Shown here piece after piece: positions 32,485 through 35,459 of a DNA stretch of 64,000 bases. The notes under the pieces are model-generated. The model was given only the letters and a program-made list of their open reading frames with translations, ran no database searches and was not told where the DNA came from. How positions within the stretch are numbered: position 1 is the first letter of the stretch; each line of letters opens with the position of its first letter. The translations under genes were made by a program, and so were the position numbers. The DNA comes from Sulfuriflexus sp. (GTDB lineage Bacteria; Pseudomonadota; Gammaproteobacteria; AKS1). The stretch covers positions 186,001-250,000 of the forward strand of contig JAGLUW010000010.1 of assembly GCA_023134145.1 (NCBI GenBank). The letters are read 5' to 3'.

Positions 32485-33669
32485 ATGAATTCTAAAGCTA
32501 CGACGGATCAACCTGTTACCTTAATGATTATAGGCGGTATTATTGCCTTTAGTCTTTTCCTGCAATACGAGTTTGCAATCAAGCAAGCTTTACTGTTTCT
32601 TATTGGTATTGGGCTGGGAGTAACACTGTTACATGCAGCCTTTGGTTTCACCGGTTCATGGCGTGTGTTTGTACGTAAACGTCGTGGCGCAGGTGTGCGC
32701 GCCCAAATATTATTACTTGCATTAACATCAATATTATTTTTTCCTCTTTTAGGTAAGGCCTTCCCTGAATTAGCGGCCAGTGCGGCGTTAGCGCCTGTTG
32801 GTGTTTCTGTGCTTGTTGGTGCCTTTGTATTTGGTTTGGGAATGCAACTTGGTGGCGGTTGTGGCTCCGGAACTTTGTTCACCGTGGGAGGAGGGCATGT
32901 GCGGATGTTGATCGTACTGGCATTCTTTATTGTTGGTGCAACGATAGGCACGGTACATTTACCTGCGTGGTTGACCTTGCCAAGTCTTGGCAAGATATCG
33001 ATCATTAATAGTCTTGGTTGGTTGCCGGCACTGGTAATGCAGTTGTTAGTGCTAACCGCACTTTATTTTGTGGTTCGTGCTATTGAGCGAAAACGTCATG
33101 GCGATGTTGTTCAGCTTGGTGGGGCCAGTGATAAATCATTTACTGAGCGACTTGTGTTTGGGCCCTGGACATTAGTTTGGGCTGTTGTTGCACTCGCATT
33201 GTTTAATCTGGCGACATTACTACTTGCTGGTCATCCCTGGACAATTACATTTGGCTTTGGTCTCTGGGGAACCAAGTTATGGGCTGCGCTAGGTGGTGAT
33301 GTTAGCCAATGGGCTTTTTGGCAGAGTGGCTATGCTGCAAAGGCTCTGAACGGTAGTGTCTTGGCAGATACAACCACATTGATGGATTTTGGAATTATTC
33401 TCGGTGCGATGCTTGCCGCAGCATTGGCCGGAAAGTTTGCACCAGATAGCAAGATCAATATGGCCGGTTTCATGACGGCTATTATTGGTGGTCTGCTAAT
33501 GGGTTATGGTGCTCGGCTTGCCTTTGGTTGTAACATTGGTGGTTTGTTGGCAGGAATTAGTTCGGGTAGTTTGCATGGTTGGCTCTGGTTGATTGCAGGA
33601 TTTACTGGTACGCTTGTCGGTGTGCGACTACGTATTATCTTTAAAATAGATAAGCCTATTGAGGCCTGA
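32485..33669 (+). CDS. YeeE/YedE-family sulfur-compound transporter
   Basis: A 394-residue inner-membrane protein with about ten hydrophobic segments. The two halves each carry the conserved Cys motif of the thiosulfate transporter family: GMQLGGGCGSGTLFTVGG at about 130 and RLAFGCNIGGLLAGISSGS at about 350. In YeeE (TsuA) such cysteines pass thiosulfate through the membrane. It is a full-length two-half protein, not the split YeeE/YedE pair. Second gene of the sulfur operon; the next gene starts 2 nt after its stop. The exact substrate (thiosulfate, sulfide or another sulfur species) is unknown. Confidence 0.9.
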   Translation: MNSKATTDQPVTLMIIGGIIAFSLFLQYEFAIKQALLFLIGIGLGVTLLHAAFGFTGSWRVFVRKRRGAGVRAQILLLALTSILFFPLLGKAFPELAASAALAPVGVSVLVGAFVFGLGMQLGGGCGSGTLFTVGGGHVRMLIVLAFFIVGATIGTVHLPAWLTLPSLGKISIINSLGWLPALVMQLLVLTALYFVVRAIERKRHGDVVQLGGASDKSFTERLVFGPWTLVWAVVALALFNLATLLLAGHPWTITFGFGLWGTKLWAALGGDVSQWAFWQSGYAAKALNGSVLADTTTLMDFGIILGAMLAAALAGKFAPDSKINMAGFMTAIIGGLLMGYGARLAFGCNIGGLLAGISSGSLHGWLWLIAGFTGTLVGVRLRIIFKIDKPIEA

Positions 33670-33671
33670 TT

Positions 33672-33854
33672 ATGGAACATAAATACAATCGCTGGATCAT
33701 GGGAACAGCAGTGGGCATTGTTGCAATTGCTGCCATGATCGATCATACCCGACATACCCTGCCCACTGCGCAGCCGAATGATATCGTTATTATCGACGAT
33801 GAAACAGACGCTTCACCATGTTCGTTGGATGTCTCTCCCTGCAGTCTAGATTGA
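33672..33854 (+). CDS. 60-residue membrane peptide with tandem SPCSLD motif
   Basis: A small protein I do not recognise. A GAGG ribosome site at 33661-33664, seven nt before the ATG and overlapping the end of the transporter gene, supports translation. One hydrophobic segment (WIMGTAVGIVAIAAMI, about 8-23) is followed by an acidic stretch (IVIIDDETDA) and a C-terminus that repeats SPCSLD twice, joined by Val. The two copies use different synonymous codons at five of six positions (TCA CCA TGT TCG TTG GAT against TCT CCC TGC AGT CTA GAT), so the protein motif seems to be conserved while the DNA diverged. It may be a thiol carrier for the adjacent transporter; this is inference. Confidence 0.7.
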   Translation: MEHKYNRWIMGTAVGIVAIAAMIDHTRHTLPTAQPNDIVIIDDETDASPCSLDVSPCSLD

Positions 33855-34484: not shown

Positions 34485-35459
34485 ATGAATCTTCGTCACT
34501 TGGTTATATTCTTAGGTCTATTATTATTTAACTTGTCTTTGCAGGCAGCAACCCTACCCGGGCCCGTTGTTGATTCGGCATGGTTGGCAAAAAACCTTGA
34601 TAAGGTTGTTATCCTCGATGCACGTAAAGATATCAAAAGTTTTACAGCTAAACCGGCATACAAAAAAAATAAAAAAACCGGAAAACTGAAACTTGCCCGC
34701 GTTGGTGGTCATATAAAAGGTGCGCAACTGGTTAATTACAAGAAAGTGCGTGCCAAGAGGGAAATTGATGGCAAGACAGTAACGCGTATGTTGCCAGTAA
34801 AAGCTGACTTTGAAAAACTCATGCAGGCAGCAGGGCTGAGTAAAAATAGCGCTGTTGTTATTGTCAGCAAGGGGCAGTCTGGTGGAGATATAACCATCGC
34901 GACACGCCTGTATTGGCAACTAAAGTACTATGGTCACACCGACATGGCTATTCTTGATGGTGGTATGGCACAGTGGCTCAAAGATGCTCATAAGGTGAAT
35001 ACAAAACCCGCAAAGGCAAGCAAAGGTAACTGGGTTGCGACCGCGGAAAACAAATCTATCCTCGCTACCAGCGATGATGTTGCCAAGGCCGTAAAAGATA
35101 AATCAGTCCAGCTCGTTGATACACGCGTCTTGAGTCAATACCTGGGTACTTATAAAAAGTCCTATGTTTATGCAAAGGGGCATGTTCCTACCGCTAAAGT
35201 TTTTCCGGTAGAGCTGTTGACATACCCAAGTTCACCCGCCAAGTTTACACCTAGTGATGATCTTGCTGCCTTGGCTCGTGAATTTGGTATTGATACGAAA
35301 AAACCTGCAATCACTTATTGCAACAGTGGCCACCTTGCATCAGGCGCCTGGTTTGTGATGAGCGAGGTACTAGGTAATAAACAGGCCAAACTTTATGATG
35401 GTTCCATGCACCAGTGGACACTGGAAAAAAGGCCAACTACAGCAATGAAGATGGAGTAG
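34485..35459 (+). CDS. Secreted two-domain rhodanese-type sulfurtransferase
   Basis: A 324-residue periplasmic protein: signal peptide LVIFLGLLLFNLSLQA, then two rhodanese domains. The second has the active-site Cys C279 in ITYCNSGHLASGAW. In the first the catalytic Cys is lost (IVSKGQSGGD), the normal pattern for tandem thiosulfate sulfurtransferases, where only one domain is active. An AGGAGGTG ribosome site before the ATG is the strongest in this operon, so high expression is likely. As the last gene after the YeeE/YedE transporter and the SPCSLD peptide, it may move sulfane sulfur in the periplasm. It ends 10 nt from the convergent cmoB gene. Confidence 0.9.
   Translation: MNLRHLVIFLGLLLFNLSLQAATLPGPVVDSAWLAKNLDKVVILDARKDIKSFTAKPAYKKNKKTGKLKLARVGGHIKGAQLVNYKKVRAKREIDGKTVTRMLPVKADFEKLMQAAGLSKNSAVVIVSKGQSGGDITIATRLYWQLKYYGHTDMAILDGGMAQWLKDAHKVNTKPAKASKGNWVATAENKSILATSDDVAKAVKDKSVQLVDTRVLSQYLGTYKKSYVYAKGHVPTAKVFPVELLTYPSSPAKFTPSDDLAALAREFGIDTKKPAITYCNSGHLASGAWFVMSEVLGNKQAKLYDGSMHQWTLEKRPTTAMKME

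Follow-up and report, generated by a model that had tools for sequence, protein, structure and literature searches.

The 60-residue peptide encoded at 33672-33854 (+ strand) of the 64,000-nucleotide stretch of DNA analysed here (the window) is a genuine member of an undescribed family of membrane-anchored peptides built around Pro-Cys (PC) repeats. Judging from its motifs, neighbours and hosts, it probably carries sulfur on its cysteines, and we see about an even chance that it serves as a carrier of sulfane sulfur with several cysteine sites, tethered to the membrane and feeding a YeeE-type importer. According to the abstract of PMC11582611, it is poorly understood how external sulfur gets to the oxidation enzymes of the cytoplasm.

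The peptide and its family

The reading frame starts with ATG and runs for 60 codons to a stop, and the product comprises a hydrophobic stretch, a DHTRH motif, an acidic stretch and the end SPCSLD-V-SPCSLD (first copy 33813-33830, second 33834-33851, both +, with Val between them), in agreement with the description given by an earlier, sequence-only reading. In the AlphaFold (AF2) model, residues 5-24 (33684-33743, +) form a helix that is predicted to cross the membrane and is followed by a disordered tail, all at modest-to-low confidence (mean pLDDT 62, about 61-69 in the helix). The DHTRH motif (33741-33755, +) follows the helix. The window peptide matched no Pfam family at E 0.1.

Homologues were found in four of the 55 other genomes in a search of 56 near genomes, with E values of 3e-13 to 2e-7 and in the same place after YeeE. 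A single-sequence scan of the genome contigs gave no match, and a five-sequence profile was needed to retrieve 22 named contigs, all of them from metagenome assemblies; the titles of 21 name gammaproteobacterial groups, and that of the remaining one gives Proteobacteria only. With the same profile, 12 of the 369 genomes of the class, the window's included, are clear carriers, and one further carrier (G594) belongs to another class of the phylum. Many of these genomes and the named contigs represent one and the same organism; with each counted once, there are 26 members besides the window's (the 22 named contigs plus G002, G260, G196 and G594). The gene is thus real beyond chance, recurring each time with a PC motif. 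Weaker profile matches (L079-L087, E 5e-4 to 0.009) were not accepted, except for a Cys-less homologue in genome G265 (L084, L160) described below; L087, a tandem DNA repeat translated in three frames, was rejected.

All members combine an apolar stretch long enough for a helix with the triplet DHT (invariant in 26 aligned rows), a linker and a PC motif, and the 26 other members share one membrane helix, DHT, an acidic tail and one to nine PC[SG]L repeats. The best conserved part is the helix with the DH motif. L053, for which no start was accepted, is included in the 26-row alignment and left out of the statistics on 25 peptides. These 25 hold 97 cysteines, 94 of which follow Pro and 92 of which form PCx[LMIV]; there are one to nine PC sites per peptide, the C-C spacing is 6-19, and neither CxC nor CxxC occurs. 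The thiols are therefore isolated, and the paired cysteines of the sequence-only reading give way to a different unit, the single PCxL site. In all 25 peptides the net charge switches from positive (+1 to +4) before DHT to negative (-2 to -16) behind it, a pattern that by the positive-inside rule places the tail, by prediction, in the periplasm. This charge pattern and the modestly confident helix together bear out the single membrane span claimed earlier.

The family corresponds to none of the Pfam and NCBIfam models that were searched. The SoxY domain (PF13501) has no match among the 26 members, nor does a GGCGG C-terminus, the peptides finishing in PC[SG]L or in a short tail beyond it. In the open-access papers searched we found no description of the peptide family or of DUF6969, and no paper related to the repeat strings.

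Repeat codons and selection

Compared codon by codon, the two SPCSLD copies differ at five of six positions, all synonymously (TCA/TCT, CCA/CCC, TGT/TGC, TCG/AGT and TTG/CTA, with GAT/GAT identical), as had been reported. Given the local codon usage of six neighbouring genes, 3.69 of 6 independent codons would be expected to differ, and the probability of five or more differences is 0.22; the copies have thus reached synonymous saturation. The divergence argues against a recent slip in the window peptide, and that half of the earlier argument stands; its other half, in which codon divergence was taken as proof of selection, was rejected on the same figures. The arrays of other members are mostly diverged as well (L049, L061), with recent repeat expansion in L073 and L077. 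The real evidence for selection on the peptide is instead comparative, namely the conservation of the family and a dN/dS of 0.10 for L056/L059, the one measurable pair; in the pair L060/L062 synonymous sites are saturated and pN is 0.15. On these grounds, selection on the peptide is upheld.

Operon layout

The cluster in the window, which lies wholly on the + strand, begins with an OsmC-family protein (PF02566; 32064-32468), a gene found upstream elsewhere in L052, L056 and L059 only. It is followed by a YeeE/YedE-type transporter of 394 residues (PF04143, Sulf_transp; 32485-33669; 223 bits, cut-off 27), the peptide, a DUF6969 protein of 198 residues without a signal peptide by eye (PF22308; 33858-34454; 145 bits, cut-off 27), and a tandem rhodanese (34485-35459), whose N-terminal segment looks signal-like by eye and whose catalytic-type Cys279 (35319-35321), in YCNSG, is invariant (16/16). 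Scanning for promoters and terminators yielded no useful signal over that of shuffled sequence.

The same arrangement of YeeE, peptide, DUF6969 and exported rhodanese is repeated at other loci. Among the named loci, YeeE lies directly 5' of the peptide in 21/21 with upstream DNA and DUF6969 comes next after it in 20/20 with downstream DNA. Of the 19 loci whose DNA extends far enough, 15 have a rhodanese following, and L046, L053, L058 and L065 have none nearby. The yeeE stop and the peptide start overlap as ATGA in 10/20 loci. Counting all members, YeeE, always of one subfamily, is directly upstream in 24/26, the exceptions being L063, whose contig starts at the peptide, and G196, where another gene occupies that place; the proposed tie to YeeE/YedE thus holds wherever the upstream DNA can be read, with G196 as the one exception. 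That locus (L138) encodes five NPC[SN]LD repeats and DUF6969, with YeeE and rhodanese not adjacent, and the gene upstream of its peptide resembles a cobalamin adenosyltransferase by eye.

The YeeE neighbour

Two cysteines of the window's YeeE, C126 (32860-32862) and C349 (33529-33531), are invariant in 30/30 rows. They match two TsuA cysteines that the excerpted text of PMC11582611 calls indispensable. TsuA models score the protein at 66.6 and 38.9 bits, below their cut-offs of 400 and 645, and the YedE/FdhT (selenium) model scores it at 138 bits, below its cut-off of 350. A role in selenium metabolism was considered and rejected: selenium-named NCBIfam models are among the best matches of YeeE, rhodanese and OsmC, all below cut-off, and SelD exceeds its cut-off in 1/12 carriers.

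YeeE matches at E 1e-30 or better occur in 33/369 genomes, of which 30 were put in a tree (G070, read as L057/L116 only, was left out, and the G111 and G061 matches were not included). Nineteen form one group (support 93/92), and all 19 are followed by a small one-helix ORF: ten of the PCSL type, six of a CAPC type, two with one Cys (G226, G259) and one without Cys (G265). The tails of the sister CAPC type end in CAPCGAPC or CAPCGQAC (L165, L166, L168, L169, L170, L177). The eight genomes with CAPC or one-Cys ORFs are without DUF6969, and each of them encodes a rhodanese relative upstream of YeeE.

In G265 (L160, oriented about 2676-2855), a YeeE 65% identical to the window's is followed by a peptide with the plan TM-DHFNHH and no Cys, and DUF6969 has no match in the genome. 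Because G265 is nested among the PCSL rows of the YeeE tree, it would most simply have lost Cys and DUF6969 together, which suggests that DUF6969 serves the PC tail. The sequence-only reading had expected similar short Cys-bearing ORFs after yeeE-like genes in relatives, and had named loss of the cysteines in an orthologue as a refutation of its proposal. Such ORFs are indeed found across the family, and the loss occurs once, in G265, along with the absence of DUF6969.

DUF6969 and other Pro-Cys proteins

The tightest partner of the peptide, missed in the sequence-only reading, is DUF6969, which is present in 29/369 genomes, comprising all 12 carriers versus 17/357 others (Fisher 5e-15). Ten further genomes with the domain come from a phylum sample. 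In all 39 proteins H57, H59, E68, G70, H71, F72, H73, H85, N104 and V107 are invariant, and His69 is kept in 38/39, giving the pattern HxH..EHGHFH..H. The structural model is confident (pLDDT 92.6), and a search with it returned no PDB match at E 0.001 or better (best VIA Z 3.4). A new fold with a His-rich site is possible on the basis of the model, the absence of a listed fold being no proof of one.

In 12 of the 17 non-carrier genomes, an exported-looking protein with a different Pro-Cys repeat (NPCAAK-like, RGGNPCAPSA or GNPCAPG) is encoded directly upstream of DUF6969 on the same strand; the other five (G090, G213, G032, G027, G129) have no upstream Pro-Cys ORF. In the phylum sample, such an ORF lies directly upstream in G427, G553, G641 and G594 (the PCSL peptide in G594), directly downstream in G456 and upstream on the other strand in G597, and none is present in G380, G438 (contig end), G514 and G443. 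Overall, a Pro-Cys repeat ORF immediately precedes DUF6969 on the same strand in 28 of 39 cases and lies within about 2 kb in 30/39; of the nine DUF6969 genes with none nearby, those of G213 and G438 sit at a contig end or close to one. Two criteria for PC-rich ORFs were used, G264 and G153 passing the looser only. By the stricter, DUF6969-centred loci totalling 357216 bases contain 17 Pro-Cys ORFs, every one of them close to the gene, whereas the 129777 bases of control loci have such ORFs at one place; the control comprises 43 loci weakly matched in earlier searches and is not a random sample.

Repeat types follow the branching of the DUF6969 tree, in which the 13 PCSL-linked proteins and that of G129 fall in one supported group. 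At the G129 locus (L137), which has no PC peptide, a small YgaP-like_TM membrane protein (PF11127) with Cys is encoded between a cytochrome c and DUF6969.

The plan of YeeE, Pro-Cys protein, DUF6969 and rhodanese recurs with differently built repeats. G160 has two adjacent half-transporters (PF04143 each), then an RGGNPCAPSA protein, DUF6969 and a rhodanese; the same two half-transporters were read by eye in G270, and in G553 and G641 a YeeE-like protein, an NPCGPKK protein, DUF6969 and a rhodanese follow in order. At L134 and L135, a metallo-beta-lactamase (PF00753) with a Tat-like start (by eye) is clustered with two half-YeeE genes upstream of the PC-repeat protein. In G017, G128, G054 and G427, a SoxA/TsdA-type cytochrome domain is flanked at both ends by NPCAAK-like repeats, and these cytochrome c proteins adjoin DUF6969 (L121 5445-6227, L122, L131, L155). 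SoxA/TsdA-type cytochromes are enzymes of thiosulfate chemistry. In G138 (L124 8186-9091), an MNIO RiPP enzyme (PF05114) comes directly after an NPCA-repeat/DUF6969 locus, and a DsbD-type protein lies upstream.

By gene content, the carriers are mostly Sox/Dsr sulfur oxidisers: SoxB exceeds its cut-off in 10/12 against 137/357 others (p 0.002), SoxY is present in 11/12 and DsrA in 10/12. Hosts with dsrA and sox genes often store sulfur globules.

Discussion

If the peptide is a sulfur carrier, its N-terminal helix would lie in the inner membrane against the YeeE-type transporter, and its acidic, disordered tail would reach into the periplasm, as the charge pattern suggests, and offer isolated Pro-Cys-x-Leu thiols. 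The exported rhodanese may load these thiols with sulfur, held as a persulfide or thiosulfonate on Cys, and from the tail the sulfur would pass to the two invariant cysteines of YeeE, to be imported towards oxidation by cytoplasmic rDsr. DUF6969, presumably cytoplasmic, may be a dedicated maturation partner that acts on the Pro-Cys repeat before export, either as a chaperone or as a modifying enzyme with a His metal site. A thiol or persulfide relay with YeeE, as the sequence-only reading suggested, is consistent with the presence of an exported rhodanese, with the Sox/Dsr metabolism of the hosts and with the analogous repeats on SoxA/TsdA cytochromes. Several observations count against a carrier: the peptide of G265 is Cys-less and those of G226 and G259 have one Cys each, the G196 peptide and DUF6969 have no adjoining YeeE, a rhodanese is absent near 4 of 19 loci, 9/39 DUF6969 genes have no Pro-Cys ORF nearby, and the AF2 model of the peptide is of low confidence. 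Moreover, since SoxY is present in 11/12, the hosts do not lack a known sulfur carrier.

The MNIO gene beside the G138 NPCA/DUF6969 locus also counts against it, pointing to a RiPP or copper role. In a RiPP-like system, a metal-dependent DUF6969 would chemically modify the cysteines of the PC sites ahead of export, and the active form, which binds sulfur or metal, would be this altered array instead of a free thiol. We consider this rather unlikely, although the invariant His/Glu set, the confident model without a fold match or signal peptide, the position directly after exported-looking multi-repeat Cys proteins and the disappearance of DUF6969 where the peptide has lost its Cys would all suit a modifying enzyme. 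DUF6969 shows no enzyme homology, however, CAPCGAPC-type peptides exist without it, and neither the window nor any of the 22 named peptide loci has a match to MNIO (DUF692, PF05114), a query that did detect the gene in L124. The same lack of MNIO near PCSL peptides weakens the idea that the tail chelates or buffers copper or a similar metal at the periplasmic membrane face, which we hold to be improbable: the Cys-rich acidic tail and the His after the helix, together with the analogy to bufferins in the excerpted text of PMC12452194, speak for it, but the peptides have no CxC or CxxC and their partners are YeeE, rhodanese and Sox-type proteins. A multi-site sulfur carrier fits better than a metal cluster, because isolated thiols on a membrane tail are combined with a Cys-lined importer, an exported sulfurtransferase and sulfur-oxidising hosts.

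Two further explanations dispense with delivery of sulfur to YeeE by the tail. Globule storage in dsrA and sox hosts and the freely varying repeat number would suit a structural role as tether of sulfur globules or polysulfide chains in the periplasm. The close coupling to yeeE, with start-stop overlap in 10/20 loci, counts against such a tether, which we hold to be very improbable. There is likewise little probability that the peptide is a small assembly or regulatory subunit of YeeE in which the helix matters and the Cys tail is secondary. The helix and DH motif are indeed best conserved and persist in the Cys-less G265 peptide, and in the excerpted text of PMC11582611 a Cys-less one-helix protein of 56 residues adjoins soxT1A in Hyphomicrobium; nearly all members nevertheless retain the PC motif, and the dedicated partner DUF6969 is common to unrelated-looking Pro-Cys proteins.

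Among known systems, SoxYZ carries sulfur covalently on a periplasmic Cys, in a GGCGG C-terminus. A carrier peptide would resemble it in using periplasmic Cys in this way and differ in having neither the SoxY domain nor that end, and in offering several sites on a disordered, membrane-bound tail. The TsuA/YeeE and TsuB/YeeD system of thiosulfate uptake (PDB 6leo, 8j4c) belongs to the same transporter superfamily and likewise has a small Cys partner encoded alongside, and the Cys of the TsuA GGC and GCNIG loops are kept in the window's YeeE as C126 and C349. The first TsuA cysteine, Cys22, is not conserved there, and TsuB is cytosolic and TusA-like, whereas the window's YeeE has as its partner a PC-repeat peptide anchored in the membrane and predicted to be periplasmic. 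Hden_0678, in the SoxT1A neighbourhood as excerpted from PMC11582611, is likewise a small protein with one helix, encoded next to a YeeE-family sulfur importer in a sulfur-oxidising host, but it is Cys-less, and that neighbourhood shows no PC repeat or DUF6969 in the excerpt. The bufferins and other MNIO precursors, such as the Buf_EGKCG repeats in the excerpted text of PMC12452194, share export, a variable number of Cys repeats and a dedicated partner gene; our peptides have a PC motif in place of EGKCG, DUF6969 in place of MNIO, and YeeE and rhodanese in the operon.

More broadly, and more tentatively than for the peptide itself, exported Pro-Cys repeat proteins matured by DUF6969 might constitute a new modular class of multi-site carriers that take sulfur from Sox and rhodanese proteins to YeeE importers and so bridge the periplasm to Dsr. 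The findings provide a first functional context for DUF6969, and the few, countable cysteines, associated with a YeeE importer, a rhodanese and DUF6969, offer a direct genetic and mass-spectrometric handle on sulfur import. If the proposal is true, Pro-Cys/DUF6969 carriers would supply the missing link from sulfur in the periplasm to the Dsr pathway of the cytoplasm.
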